From an uncultured Pelagibacteraceae bacterium (GTDB lineage Bacteria; Pseudomonadota; Alphaproteobacteria; Pelagibacterales; Pelagibacteraceae), in the NCBI GenBank assembly GCA_902604525.1, contig CACKYY010000004.1, positions 1-64,000 of the forward strand: 64,000 bases of DNA, read 5' to 3'. A program made the translations under genes and the position numbers. A model generated the notes under the pieces. That model was not told where the DNA came from, made no database searches, and worked only from the letters and a program-made list of their open reading frames with translations. Within the stretch, counting starts at the first letter, position 1, and each line of letters starts with the position of its first letter. Below are positions 33,703 to 58,498 of the stretch, in pieces.

Positions 33703-33780
33703 TTTAATATAGAAATATAGAGTAGTATTAGCAACCTTTAAATGATGCTGACATATTTTTAATCAAAGAAAAATACAAAT
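33703..33780 (-). repeat. Direct repeat copy 2: intact znuA 3' end and flank
   Basis: Covers the final 51 coding bases of znuA including the stop (33728-33730) plus 25 bases downstream. It is homologous to 32928-33005 over its full length. Similarity stops abruptly at both ends. Because the match extends beyond the stop codon, it is a DNA-level duplication rather than protein convergence. Confidence 0.85.
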
Positions 33781-34744
33781 CTTTACCTGGATTTAATGTT
33801 GCTCCTAACGGATCAACTACACCAGTTTTTATATTCATATCTTTTGCAACTGCTTTAATAATATCAGGATTAAACTGTGGTTCTGAAAATACACACGCAA
33901 CTTTATCGTGTTCGATTACTTCTCTAATTTCTGCTAATTGTTCAGCTCCAGGCATTACATCTGTATTAACTGTAAACGCACCCAATATATTTACACCAAA
34001 TCTTTTTTCAAAATATTGATATGCATCATGAAAGACTATAGAAGCAACACTATTACTTAATTCAGATGAAACATCTTTAGTAAGTTTATCAATTTCTTTG
34101 TAACCTTTACTTAAATTTTCTCTATAAATTTTCTCATTTTTAGGATCATTTTCAATTAAGTGCTTAGACATTTCAAATAAAATTACCTTTGCATTAATTG
34201 GATCTAACCAAATGTGTGGATCAAATTCACCATGTGCATGTCCTTCATGATCGTCATGTCCATCATGATCATCGTGATCATCATGGCCATCTTTTTTAGC
34301 ATGAGAGTCGTGGTCGTGATCATCGTGATCTTCTTTTTTACCGTGATCATCATGTCCATGATCATCGTGATCATCAAAAATATTTCTTTCTCTAAACTTT
34401 AAAATTTGAAGTCCCTTAACTTGCATTAATTCAATTTTTTCAGCTTTCTTAGCAATTGATCCTAATGGTTTTTCTAGGAAGTTTTCTAAATCTTCTCCAA
34501 CCCAAAAAATTAAATCAGCATTTTGTAACATCTTTGCATGAGATGGTTTCATTGCAAATCCGTGTGGTGAAGCATATCCATCTACGATTAAGTCAGGTTT
34601 AGCCACTCCGTTCATAAGGTAACTAGCTAACGAATGTATTGGTTTAATTGAGGCAACTACTTTAATATCAGCATTGGCTGGTAGAAAAAAAGTAATTAAA
34701 GATAAAATTGATATGATTATTGGAAGTTTTTTTAGGTTTTTCAT
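33728..34744 (-). CDS. znuA: Zinc ABC transporter, periplasmic zinc-binding protein ZnuA
   Basis: Periplasmic receptor of 338 residues for high-affinity zinc uptake. The signal peptide ends near 'ANA-DI'. Metal-ligand regions are visible: H61 in 'ASPHGFAM', H177 in 'DPHIWLDP' and H239 in 'VFHDAYQY'. Between them (about 124-172) is a long His/Asp-rich loop with many DDH/DHD units, the hallmark of ZnuA and distinct from manganese receptors. The loop is encoded by repetitive GATCAT-like DNA (about 34240-34380) that could vary in length. It is divergent from znuC across 71 bases with two Zur-like palindromes. Confidence 0.95.
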   Translation of the reverse strand: MKNLKKLPIIISILSLITFFLPANADIKVVASIKPIHSLASYLMNGVAKPDLIVDGYASPHGFAMKPSHAKMLQNADLIFWVGEDLENFLEKPLGSIAKKAEKIELMQVKGLQILKFRERNIFDDHDDHGHDDHGKKEDHDDHDHDSHAKKDGHDDHDDHDGHDDHEGHAHGEFDPHIWLDPINAKVILFEMSKHLIENDPKNEKIYRENLSKGYKEIDKLTKDVSSELSNSVASIVFHDAYQYFEKRFGVNILGAFTVNTDVMPGAEQLAEIREVIEHDKVACVFSEPQFNPDIIKAVAKDMNIKTGVVDPLGATLNPGKDLYFSLIKNMSASFKGC

Positions 34745-34761
34745 AAATATAGTATTAATTG

Positions 34762-34798
34762 ATTGTTATAATATAACATTATGTAATAATATAACATT
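34762..34798. promoter_or_regulatory. Tandem Zur-box palindromes between znuA and znuC
   Basis: Core 1, GTTATAATATAAC (34765-34777), is a perfect 13-base palindrome about its central A and matches the known Zur consensus core GTTATANTATAAC, with TGTTATA...TATAACA flanks. Core 2, GTAATAATATAAC (34783-34795), differs at one half-site position. The cores are 18 bases apart in the divergent znuA/znuC gap, so one site cluster can repress both transcripts when zinc is sufficient. The local zur gene (36381-36779) is the obvious regulator. Confidence 0.85.
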
Positions 34799-34815
34799 TA
34801 TAAGTCAAGGGTTAA

Positions 34816-35562
34816 ATGAATTCTAATAATAATATTTTAGTTAAATTAAATAATGCTGGTTTTCGCCAAAGCGAAAAATGGTTAGTGGAAGGTGTTTCTC
34901 TTACGGTTGAAAAGGGTAAAATTGTAACTCTCATTGGTCCAAATGGTTCTGGTAAAAGTACCACTGCTAAAATTGCTTTAGGAATTTATAAAAATATTGA
35001 GGGCAGTGTTGAAAAATATACAACCAAAGTTGGTTATGTTCCTCAAAAAATTTCAATTGATTGGACTTTACCCATAAGAGTTTATGATTTTATGCTTTTG
35101 ACAGAAACTATCGAAGATAGTGCTATTGATGAAGCATTATCATTAACAGGCGTAATTCATCTTAAAAATAAAAATTTAGGTAGTTTATCTGGTGGAGAAT
35201 TTCAAAGAGTTTTAATTGCAAGAGCAATTTCTAAAAAACCAGAATTATTAGTTTTAGATGAACCAGTACAGGGAGTTGATTATACAGGTGAGATTGCTTT
35301 GTATGAATTAATTAAAAAAATATCTGATACTTTAAATTGTGGAATATTATTAATCTCTCATGATCTGCATATGGTAATGACAGCAACAGATCACGTAGTT
35401 TGTTTAAATGGTCATGTTTGTTGTTCAGGCTCACCAATAGATGTAGCAAAAAATAACGAATACAAAGCTTTGTTCGGTGAAAAAGCTTCTCAAATTTTAA
35501 CAACATACGAGCACAAACACGATCATGTTCATTCTGATGAAGGGGAAATAAAGAAAAATTAA
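34816..35562 (+). CDS. znuC: Zinc ABC transporter ATP-binding protein ZnuC
   Basis: A 248-residue ATPase of the zinc uptake system. Walker A 'GPNGSGKSTTAK', signature 'LSGGEFQRVLIARAI', Walker B 'LLVLDEPVQGVDYTGE' and switch His 'LLISHDLHMVM' are intact; 'LDEPVQGVD' is typical of ZnuC. The C terminus is His-rich ('YEHKHDHVHSDEG'), which may bind metal. It starts the znuC-znuB-zur-dehydrogenase operon, divergent from znuA, and the next gene begins directly after its stop. Confidence 0.95.
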   Translation: MNSNNNILVKLNNAGFRQSEKWLVEGVSLTVEKGKIVTLIGPNGSGKSTTAKIALGIYKNIEGSVEKYTTKVGYVPQKISIDWTLPIRVYDFMLLTETIEDSAIDEALSLTGVIHLKNKNLGSLSGGEFQRVLIARAISKKPELLVLDEPVQGVDYTGEIALYELIKKISDTLNCGILLISHDLHMVMTATDHVVCLNGHVCCSGSPIDVAKNNEYKALFGEKASQILTTYEHKHDHVHSDEGEIKKN

Positions 35563-36366
35563 ATGTTTGATGATTTTTTTATAAGAGCACTAGTTGCAGG
35601 TATTGGAATTGCATTTGTAACTGGTCCACTTGGATGTTTTGTTGTGTGGAGAAGATTGTCTTATTTTGGAGATACCCTTGCTCATTCAGCTTTGCTTGGT
35701 GTTACAATGGCTTATACATTTGATTTAAACATAGCTATTTCTGTATTTTTAATTTCATCAGTTATTGCACTAATATTAATTCAGCTTCAGAAAAAAACTA
35801 ATCTTCCTGGGGATGCATTGTTGGGGCTTTTAGCTCATTCATCATTGGCTGTTGGATTAGTAGTTATTGGTTTTCTAACATTTATAAGATTTGATATTAT
35901 GGGTTTATTATTTGGTGACATATTAGCGGTAACCACCGATGATTTATTTGTGATTTGGACAGGGGGAGCTTTAATTTTAATAGTACTTAAATTAATTTGG
36001 AAACCTTTACTTGCATCAACTGTTAACTATGAATTAGCTGAGGCAGAGGGATTAAACCCCGATAGAGCAAAAGCTATTTTTACAATATTAATGGCAGCGG
36101 TCATTGCTATTTCTATCAAAATGGTCGGATTATTATTGATTACAGGAATGTTAATTATCCCTGCTGCAATGGCTAGAAATATCTCTGATAGTCCTCAGAA
36201 AATGGTTCTATTCTCGATAATTGGTGGCTTATTATCAGTTATCTTAGGACTATACTCTTCATTAGAATTTAATACATCTTCTGGACCTTCAATTATTGCA
36301 GCGGCGTTGATATTGTTCATATTATCTTTGTTTAAAATTAAACAATCGATTAAATTAAAAAACTAA
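35563..36366 (+). CDS. znuB: Zinc ABC transporter permease ZnuB
   Basis: Inner-membrane permease of 267 residues, ABC-3 family, with about eight hydrophobic helices. It has the family motif 'GCFVVWRRLSYFGDTLAHSALLGV' near residues 24-47 and 'VNYELAEAEGLNPDRAKAIFTILMAAVIAISIKMVGLLLITGMLIIPAAMAR', which includes the ATPase-contacting loop. It lies immediately after znuC with no gap and completes the ZnuABC transporter. Confidence 0.95.
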   Translation: MFDDFFIRALVAGIGIAFVTGPLGCFVVWRRLSYFGDTLAHSALLGVTMAYTFDLNIAISVFLISSVIALILIQLQKKTNLPGDALLGLLAHSSLAVGLVVIGFLTFIRFDIMGLLFGDILAVTTDDLFVIWTGGALILIVLKLIWKPLLASTVNYELAEAEGLNPDRAKAIFTILMAAVIAISIKMVGLLLITGMLIIPAAMARNISDSPQKMVLFSIIGGLLSVILGLYSSLEFNTSSGPSIIAAALILFILSLFKIKQSIKLKN

Positions 36367-36380
36367 GTGGAAATTTAAAA

Positions 36381-36779
36381 ATGGAAAAACAACACAATCT
36401 TTCAAAAAACCAAAAAATTATTTTTGATTTAATTGATAAATCTCCTGAGCCGTTAAAAGCATATTCAATTCTTTTTAATGTACAGAAAAAAGGTATCAAT
36501 GCACCTCTTCAAGTTTATAGAGCATTAGATAAATTAGTTGAAATAGGTAAAATCCACAAAATTGAAAGTAGAAATGCTTTCATCGCATGTCAGAATTCTA
36601 GTTGTCAAATTTCTAAGGCTACAGCATTTTCAATATGTGAAAGCTGTGAAAAAGTTTCTGAAATAAGTAATACTAAACTGTCAAAATATTTATCAAACTT
36701 TGCTGATGAAGCGGGGATGAAATACAGTAAATATAATTTAGAATTTTTTGGTTTATGTAAGAAATGTAAATCAAAATAA
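36381..36779 (+). CDS. zur: Zinc uptake regulator Zur (Fur family)
   Basis: A 132-residue Fur-family repressor. The N-terminal winged helix (about 5-75) contains 'PLKAYSILFNVQKKGINAPLQVYRALDKLVEIGKIHKIESRNAFIAC'. The dimerisation half has two CxxC pairs, 'CESCEKV' and 'GLCKKCKS', that hold a structural zinc. The lack of the His-rich Fur motif and its place directly after znuCB identify it as Zur. It probably binds the palindromes at 34762-34798, creating a zinc feedback loop that includes its own gene. Confidence 0.93.
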   Translation: MEKQHNLSKNQKIIFDLIDKSPEPLKAYSILFNVQKKGINAPLQVYRALDKLVEIGKIHKIESRNAFIACQNSSCQISKATAFSICESCEKVSEISNTKLSKYLSNFADEAGMKYSKYNLEFFGLCKKCKSK

Positions 36780-56329: not shown

Positions 56330-56824
56330 ATGAGTAAAATAGCTATATATCCTGGCACATTTGATCCAATAACATATGGGCACATAGATGTAATAAAAAA
56401 AGCATTGGAACTATTTGGCAAGATTGTTGTTGGTGTATCAGATGTTAGTAGTAAAAATTATTTATTTAGCTCAGAAGAGAGAATAGAAATTGTCAACAAA
56501 GCTTTATTTAAGGATCTAAAACTTAATAAAAAAAAAATTATAGTAGTACCTTTTAGCTCATTAACGACTGATTTATGTAAAAAATATAAATCAAATATTA
56601 TACTTAGAGGTTTAAGAGCCGTATCTGATTTTGAATATGAATTTCAATTAGCTGGAATGAACAGAAAATTAAATCAGAATATAGAAACTATTTTTTTAAT
56701 GTCAGACGTTGAAAATCAAATTATCTCGTCCAGATTCGTCAAAGAGATTGTAAAATTAAATGGTGATATTAAAAAATTTACTACCAAAAGTACTATTAAA
56801 TCTTTAAAAGAAAAATATGAATAG
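56330..56824 (+). CDS. coaD: Phosphopantetheine adenylyltransferase
   Basis: Penultimate coenzyme A step: ATP plus 4'-phosphopantetheine gives dephospho-CoA. The 164-residue product has 'AIYPGTFDPITYGHIDVIKKAL' (nucleotidyltransferase T/HxGH motif), 'ILRGLRAVSDFEYEFQLAGMNRKL' and 'ISSRFVKEIVKLNGDI', all diagnostic. It lies 4 bases after gyrA and overlaps the cyclophilin gene by 8 bases. Confidence 0.96.
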   Translation: MSKIAIYPGTFDPITYGHIDVIKKALELFGKIVVGVSDVSSKNYLFSSEERIEIVNKALFKDLKLNKKKIIVVPFSSLTTDLCKKYKSNIILRGLRAVSDFEYEFQLAGMNRKLNQNIETIFLMSDVENQIISSRFVKEIVKLNGDIKKFTTKSTIKSLKEKYE

Positions 56825-57377
56825 AATTTTAATAAGCTTATTTATTTTATTTTTTTTTATTACTAATCAATCAATAGCTGAGGAGAATATAATGATTTTA
56901 AAGTTAAAAGATGGGGATGTAAAAATTGAGTTATTTGAAGATGTGGCACCAAATCATGTAAAGAGAATTAAGGAATTAGCAAATGATGGAAAATACGATA
57001 ACGTTGTTTTCCATAGAGTAATTGATGGCTTTATGGCTCAGACTGGTGATGTAAAATTTGGTAATTCAGAATCAAAGGATTTTGATTTAAGAAGAGCGGG
57101 AATGGGTGGATCTGACCTACCAGATTTGAAACAAGAATTTAGTAGCTTACCACATGATAGAGGCACTTTATCGATGGCAAGATCCTCAGATCCAAATAGT
57201 GCGAATAGTCAGTTTTTTATATGTTTTAAACCAGCACCTTTTCTAGACAGACAATACACTGTTTTTGGTAAAGTAATAGAAGGAATGGATTTAGTGGATA
57301 AAATTAAAAGAGGTGATGAAAGTAATAACGGATCTGTAACAGAGCCTGATAAGATCATAAGCTTTAAATCACAATAA
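56817..57377 (+). CDS. Periplasmic cyclophilin-type peptidyl-prolyl isomerase
   Basis: A 186-residue cyclophilin with an N-terminal signal peptide (about 1-21, cleavage near 'SIA-EE'), so it acts in the periplasm. Core motifs: 'ELFEDVAPNHVKRIKELA', 'YDNVVFHRVIDGFMAQTGD', 'RGTLSMARSSDPNSANSQFFICF' and 'YTVFGKVIEGMDLVDKI'. It speeds proline isomerisation during folding of exported proteins. Overlaps coaD and precedes tgt by 8 bases. Confidence 0.94.
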   Translation: MNRILISLFILFFFITNQSIAEENIMILKLKDGDVKIELFEDVAPNHVKRIKELANDGKYDNVVFHRVIDGFMAQTGDVKFGNSESKDFDLRRAGMGGSDLPDLKQEFSSLPHDRGTLSMARSSDPNSANSQFFICFKPAPFLDRQYTVFGKVIEGMDLVDKIKRGDESNNGSVTEPDKIISFKSQ

Positions 57378-57385
57378 TCTATTGA

Positions 57386-58498
57386 ATGGCATTAAAAAAT
57401 TTTGCCTTTAAAGTTTTAAAGAAAGATAAACATGCTAGATCAGGTATCATAGAAACGCATCGAGGAAATATAAATACACCAGCCTTTATGCCTGTTGGCA
57501 CACAAGCTACTGTAAAAGCATGTACAATTGATGATATAAAAAAAACAGGTTCTCAAGTAATTTTATCTAACACTTATCACCTAATGATAAGACCTGGTGT
57601 AGAACGAATTCAATCCGCGGGTGGTTTACATGAATTTATGAACTGTGATTTACCAATTTTAACAGACTCTGGTGGTTTTCAAGTAATGTCTCTCTCAAAA
57701 CTAAATAAAATTGATCGTGAAAAAGGTGCCATCTTTAATTCACATGTGGATGGTAAAAAATTTTATTTAAGCCCCGAAGAAAGTATAAGAATTCAATTAG
57801 GTTTAAATTCAGATATAGTTATGATTATGGATGAGTGTCCAAAAAATACAAATGATTATCATTTAATAAAAAAATCTATGGATCTTTCTTTATATTGGGC
57901 AGAAAGATCAAAAAAGTCATTTGGTAAAAATCCTCACAAGGCATTATTTGGTATTGTTCAAGGAGGATTGTTTAAAGATTTAAGAATTAAGTCTTTAAAT
58001 GAATTAATTAATATAGATTTTGATGGTTATGCCTTAGGAGGACTTGCTGTTGGGGAAACTCAAGCCGAGATGTTTAAGGTTTTAGACGATGTAAAAGAAT
58101 TTTTACCTGAAGATAAACCTCACTATTTAATGGGTGTAGGTACACCATCCGATATTCTTGGTGCTGTTAAACGTGGTATTGATATGTTTGATTGTGTTTT
58201 ACCAACCAGATCTGGAAGAACTGGCCTTGCCTTCACTTGGGACGGAAGAATAAATATTAAAAATAATAAATACCAGAACGATAATACACCACTTGATTCC
58301 AATTGTGATAATTTAAGTTTGAATAAATATTCTAAAAATTACTTAAACCATCTTTTTAATACAAATGAAATACTAGCATCAATGTTATTAACACTTCATA
58401 ATATCAATTTTTATCAAGAATTAATGTTTAATATCAGAGACAATATTGAGGCAGGTACATTTGATAAATTTCATGATAAATACATTGATAAGTTGTAG
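57386..58498 (+). CDS. tgt: Queuine tRNA-guanine transglycosylase lacking a complete zinc site
   Basis: Exchanges guanine 34 of GUN anticodons for preQ1 in queuosine synthesis. The 370-residue TIM-barrel protein keeps the catalytic residues D94 ('ILTDSGGFQVMS') and D266 ('RGIDMFDCVLPTRSGR'). The structural zinc site normally reads C-x-C-x-x-C...H. Here the region 'PLDSNCDNLSLNKYSKNYLNHL' gives C307, but N309 and L312 stand where cysteines belong; H338 ('LTLHNINFY') is kept at the correct 31-residue distance. Frame and length are intact, so this is a real substitution. Function may remain without zinc. Confidence 0.95.
   Translation: MALKNFAFKVLKKDKHARSGIIETHRGNINTPAFMPVGTQATVKACTIDDIKKTGSQVILSNTYHLMIRPGVERIQSAGGLHEFMNCDLPILTDSGGFQVMSLSKLNKIDREKGAIFNSHVDGKKFYLSPEESIRIQLGLNSDIVMIMDECPKNTNDYHLIKKSMDLSLYWAERSKKSFGKNPHKALFGIVQGGLFKDLRIKSLNELINIDFDGYALGGLAVGETQAEMFKVLDDVKEFLPEDKPHYLMGVGTPSDILGAVKRGIDMFDCVLPTRSGRTGLAFTWDGRINIKNNKYQNDNTPLDSNCDNLSLNKYSKNYLNHLFNTNEILASMLLTLHNINFYQELMFNIRDNIEAGTFDKFHDKYIDKL

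Follow-up and report, generated by a model that had tools for sequence, protein, structure and literature searches.

A tRNA-guanine transglycosylase without its zinc site in Pelagibacterales and other Alphaproteobacteria

The tRNA-guanine transglycosylase (Tgt) encoded in the window, that is, the whole 64,000-nucleotide stretch of Pelagibacteraceae DNA analysed here, lacks the zinc site of its Zymomonas mobilis and Escherichia coli counterparts, as do all Pelagibacterales Tgts that we read and part of those from other Alphaproteobacteria. We consider it quite probable that this is a working, selected, preQ1-type enzyme in which a packed loop free of metal would stand in place of the structural zinc knuckle, with the TIM-barrel fold, the catalytic Asp pair, the pocket for preQ1 and the hot spot of the dimer interface all retained. 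YhhQ/QPTR would import preQ1, which Tgt most likely swaps for G34 of GUN tRNAs, and with neither QueA nor QueG in family f1, preQ1 is probably the end product. By the same reading the zinc site would be dispensable in Alphaproteobacteria and lost several times, at least twice inside the order if Cys was not regained.

33728..36779, znuA (−) and znuC-znuB-zur (+): divergent zinc uptake locus (names by eye from translations)
56817..57377, +: peptidyl-prolyl isomerase gene, directly upstream of tgt (product name by eye)
57386..58498, +: tgt, encoding a 370-aa bacterial tRNA-guanine transglycosylase without the zinc site (translation, TIGR00430, phmmer, AF2)
58304..58306, +: C307 (Z. mobilis C318), first former ligand, TGT codon, Cys here
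58310..58312, +: N309 (Z. mobilis C320), second ligand replaced, AAT codon (alignment)
58319..58321, +: L312 (Z. mobilis C323), third ligand replaced, TTG codon, Leu in 63/63 rows of genus g1
58328..58351, +: Y315, Y319 and H322, dimer-interface hot spot (Z. mobilis W326, Y330, H333; alignment)
58397..58399, +: H338 (Z. mobilis H349), fourth ligand, CAT codon, His here
L424:1973-2521, elsewhere in the window's genome: QPTR (YhhQ), directly after rpmB, which follows pyrD (names by eye)

The window protein and its former zinc site

The open reading frame at 57386-58498 encodes a genuine bacterial Tgt, scoring 469.7 bits with the TIGR00430 equivalog model, a wide margin over the cut-off of 306.75. 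The earlier note's view that frame and catalytic Asp residues are intact is borne out by an unbroken frame of 370 aa and by D94 and D269 (Z. mobilis D102 and D280), whose columns hold Asp wherever the 201 rows have a letter. The preQ1-type pocket residues C151 and V222 (Z. mobilis Cys158 and Val233) occur in 115/115 Pelagibacterales rows, and C151 together with G-G-L-A-V, a pocket described as preQ1 type (PMC11570991; PMC3660597), occurs in 85/85 rows of family f1. The window protein reads GGLAVG and does not match GG[LS][AS]G, the motif given for queuine-salvaging Tgts of the Chlamydia type (PMC11570991). The gene queA is absent beside the window's tgt; it adjoins tgt in f2 genomes and lies within the fetched tgt flank at 63 of the 86 other loci of the class.

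The phmmer alignment with Z. mobilis Tgt is free of gaps over residues 184-364, where it ends, and sets C307, N309, L312 and H338 against C318, C320, C323 and H349, the zinc ligands named in the earlier note. The C-x-C-x-x-C and His of the zinc-containing subgroup (Z. mobilis and E. coli type) are absent from the window protein, and the initial description of C307 and H338 at their original spacing, with Asn and Leu at 309 and 312, was exact. As a fixed remnant, however, C307 does not stand, since its column holds Cys in only 48 of 63 rows of genus g1 (V, T, I or M in the other 15) and H338 is Asn in 14/63. Alternative ligands had also been envisaged; residues 300-345 of the Tgt alignment contain no Cys or His that is both new and conserved, and the hydrophobic replacements at ligand positions argue against substitutes. 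Judged from these residues, the window Tgt very probably cannot hold a structural zinc.

Distribution of the zinc site

The full zinc site is found in none of the 115 Pelagibacterales rows, which represent 111 genomes by handle because four f2 genomes were fetched twice; the order name rests on one named record (L276), placed beside the f2 rows. A loss common to all these rows rules out the sequencing error that had been raised as a possible explanation. No single Cys is kept throughout. Within genus g1 the four positions read CNLH in 41 rows, VKLN in six, CKLH in five and other combinations in 11, the residues found being C/V/T/I/M, N/K/I/V/L, L and H/N, in that order. The site is equally absent from all 22 rows of other f1 genera (CxLH in most of g8 and g9, V/I-C-S-H in g5-g7, LILN in g10), and all 30 rows of family f2 read S-N-C-H. 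The surviving Cys differs by branch, being the first in most g1, g8 and g9 rows, the second in g5-g7 and the third in f2, so the ancestor of the order possessed all three Cys residues if none was regained later, and on the same condition at least two separate losses took place inside the order.

The gene itself is present in 53 of 61 relatives searched and in 259 of 297 Pelagibacterales genomes drawn from the order. The 38 genomes without a match include nine of the 150 high-quality ones, and in one relative (G025) the copy is broken by two stops, the other matches listed having no internal stop; tgt therefore appears dispensable in some members, and even this last queuosine (Q) gene may have been lost in places. 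L281 and W285 (85/85 f1 rows each) and N321 (84/85) are rare in f2 and other Alphaproteobacteria (3, 7 and 3 rows, respectively), a pattern that could possibly mark a tgt-only lifestyle.

Among 86 other alphaproteobacterial genomes the site is present in 62 and absent in 24; these genomes come from the best-scoring rows of a 288-genome draw, so that divergent Tgts are under-sampled. Of 80 named records, 63 are labelled Alphaproteobacteria (one of them Pelagibacterales), 32 with the site and 31 without, an overall share biased by the search alignment of 19 sequences, 17 of them zinc-less. By order, and bearing in mind that names of metagenome-assembled genomes can be wrong, the site is present in 0/15 Hyphomicrobiales, 0/6 Caulobacterales and none of the single records of Parvularculales, Hyphomonadales and Pelagibacterales, in 12/12 Rhodobacterales and 4/4 Rhodospirillales, and in 6/8 Sphingomonadales, 4/5 Acetobacterales, 1/2 Rickettsiales and 5/8 records of unassigned order. 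Named records of other classes all keep it (12/12), and five class-less records divide into three with and two without. Beyond the class, it is kept by 36/36 genomes of other Pseudomonadota, chosen from the matches listed in a phylum draw, and by one Kiritimatiellia-named record from outside the phylum. The comparison of SAR11 with other alphaproteobacterial Tgts that the earlier note had proposed therefore reveals a loss that is order-wide and recurs in 24 of 86 others, and its expectation that such a Tgt would be unusual fails, given that all sampled Hyphomicrobiales and Caulobacterales lack the site.

Two gene trees bear on the number of events. The first (86/86 class rows, 22/22 rows of other f1 genera, 12/30 of f2 and 20/63 of g1) requires at least nine site changes, six of them forced by starred branches, and contains three zinc-less branches flagged as long. 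Eight changes, only three of them forced, are needed on the second (77 of the 80 named rows, without L267, L273 and L277, plus 28 chosen rows). In the second tree Hyphomicrobiales, Caulobacterales and their kin form one group in which 35 of 36 rows are zinc-less, so their losses may be a single event. These two orders share the absence of the site with SAR11 (21/21 sampled) and fill it differently, their commonest form being S-x-C-P-A-[SA]-x-x-Y, often with R-D before the Y, in contrast to mostly C-x-N-L-x-L-N-K-Y in genus g1. D314 occurs in 15 of 24 zinc-less non-SAR11 rows vs 6 of 62 zinc-bearing ones (uncorrected for kinship), a hint that the former may have a packing of their own, where SAR11 g1 has instead the invariant L312.

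Selection, fold and the queuosine pathway

The g1 tgt is under strong purifying selection, with a median dN/dS of 0.064 over 169 pairs of loci and of 0.041 over residues 300-345 (161 pairs). L312, Y315 and H322 are invariant in the 63 g1 rows, and the aromatic hot spot of the Z. mobilis dimer (Phe92, Trp326, Tyr330 and His333; PMC5395182) is kept in the window protein as F84, Y315, Y319 and H322. The structure prediction that had been suggested as a check agrees with a retained Tgt fold: the AF2 model (mean pLDDT 90.2) matches Z. mobilis structures (1pud, 1ozm and others) with TM 0.94-0.97, Z of about 54 and 53-55% identity among the 50 PDB matches listed, and shares with them catalytic Asp residues, pocket and hot spot, the difference lying in the zinc held there through four ligands of which two are Asn and Leu here. 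In the loop (blocks 301-310/311-320) pLDDT is 80/84 for SAR11 vs 93/98 for a zinc-bearing control modelled with an identical set of 38 rows, the blocks being in each protein's own numbering and three residues apart. A short helix sits at roughly the corresponding point of the control's loop, and the lower values suggest that some loosening of the SAR11 loop is possible.

Published experiments touch the order to which Sinorhizobium meliloti and Bartonella henselae belong, in which 15/15 named members lack the site, a count taken from sampled relatives of the tested strains. In S. meliloti, a phenotype that depends on Q is reportedly lost in tgt mutants, and preQ1 fails to rescue it (PMC3568095), and B. 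henselae Tgt is described as partially complementing an E. coli queD queF tgt mutant (PMC11570991).

The gene content of family f1 is that of preQ1 salvage, namely Tgt and YhhQ/QPTR (PF02592, 28/28 genomes) without QueA (0/48), QueG (TIGR00276, 0/28) or QueF over cut-off (0/28). For the window's own genome, which is 82% complete, gene absences lean on complete relatives. Searches for QueF (PF14489) matched 56 of 58 genomes, always below cut-off, in open frames of 203-234 aa, which from their size we take to be FolE-like T-fold proteins. For QueC (PF06508), 54 of 58 genomes had matches over the low cut-off, the best reaching up to 32 bits, in frames of mostly about 364-412 or 515-530 aa (a few others 252-657); the two main sizes are presumably other PP-loop enzymes, MnmA-like and GuaA-like, by size, and QueC is likely absent. 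Rfam lists no preQ1 riboswitch near five QPTR genes, nor near that of the window's genome.

The restriction of Pelagibacter to tgt and QPTR, the proposal that it salvages preQ1 and its grouping with Bartonella are already known (PMC11570991). B. henselae bTGT and QPTR likewise stand without queA and queG and with a GGLAVG pocket (PMC11570991). A genome of presumably Bartonella-like identity (L320, family f151) also lacks the zinc site and has no queA between ppi and tgt, its Tgt falling among rhizobial Tgts in the tree; it reads S-C-A-N, so that different residues fill the site from those in the window protein. In family f2, QueA over cut-off (36/49), QueG (25/30) and QPTR (23/30) are common and QueF over cut-off is absent (0/30), for which reason f2 should depend on outside preQ1 for its queuosine. 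A tie between loss of the site and loss of queA was considered and rejected, as f2 has QueA and QueG and no site, and a queA match lies in the fetched flank of 20 of 24 zinc-less non-SAR11 loci vs 43 of 62 zinc-bearing ones; zinc-less Tgts accordingly sit in ordinary Q pathways.

Three other readings of the protein itself have to be set against a working preQ1-type enzyme. A switch to queuine as in Chlamydia would suit the combination of Tgt and YhhQ without QueA, QueG and QueF in f1, and we judge it quite unlikely in view of the pocket, which is of the preQ1 type in every f1 row (PMC11570991; PMC3660597). That tgt is decaying after loss of the Q pathway would accord with the absence of those three genes, the genomes lacking a match and the broken copy; the low median dN/dS rejects it, the other matches listed are free of internal stops, and f2 has lost the site with QueA and QueG in place, which leaves decay very improbable. 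Residual metal binding by a different or smaller set of ligands, such as C307 and H338 with a nearby Asn or Asp, draws on the retention of both residues at the right spacing in the window protein, and becomes hardly credible in the face of VKLN, VILN, LILN and MKLN relatives, which have neither Cys nor His at any of the four positions, and of a loop region that has gained no conserved ligand.

Zinc economy and implications

The suggestion that the missing site is a zinc saving tied to the regulated zinc uptake system is not supported. The ZnuABC/Zur locus itself is real by eye. It lies about 21 kb from tgt, with no link between the two found. Its Zur-like protein keeps CxxC pairs, as read by eye. 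Loss of the site through zinc scarcity in the surface ocean could draw on this locus and on ribosomal proteins, since among 30 Pelagibacterales loci (L31/L36 loci L364-L423) L31 is Cys-free in 30/30 and L36 lacks the zinc motif in 20/20 readable ones; both look like zinc-free forms, a pattern that fits low zinc use and that we count in favour of thrift. Neither L31 nor L36 was matched in the window's 82% complete genome. Zinc-free forms of L31 and L36 are probably general in Alphaproteobacteria. Against thrift, loss of the Tgt site does not go with a marine habitat from one order to the next, being complete in the 15 Hyphomicrobiales and six Caulobacterales, which as sampled presumably include soil and freshwater genera, and nil in the 12 Rhodobacterales, some of them marine by name. 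There is moreover no zinc-binding paralogue to switch from, with one tgt match in nearly all genomes listed. Finally, znuA is reported from 50% of SAR11 genomes (PMC4771312), in contrast to a site gone from 111/111 Pelagibacterales genomes. Scarcity as the cause seems to us unlikely, and the metal-free, preQ1-type Tgt remains our preferred account. It is somewhat doubtful, although conceivable, that the alphaproteobacterial translation machinery (L31, L36 and, repeatedly, Tgt) durably relaxed its use of structural zinc, ending in Pelagibacteraceae in a metal-free Tgt with preQ1 as the last wobble base in cells that count among the most abundant in the ocean.

The zinc ligands are said to have been worked out originally on E. 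coli Tgt. A full-text literature search, several of whose result lists went no further than 20 entries and which took in few subscription papers, found no report of a zinc-less Tgt in the titles and abstract openings listed, and in the main text of the B. henselae Tgt and QPTR paper the word 'zinc' occurs nowhere (PMC11570991). A zinc-less Tgt stands against the printed statement that TGT activity requires zinc (PMC9508795); given the loss in SAR11 relatives and in other alphaproteobacterial groups, the metal looks replaceable rather than essential. If SAR11, rhizobial and Caulobacter Tgts work without the site, zinc would be a replaceable structural staple, natural metal-free Tgts would be ready comparisons for what it does, and zinc-demand counts that assume a zinc in every Tgt would be wrong for SAR11, rhizobia and Caulobacter.
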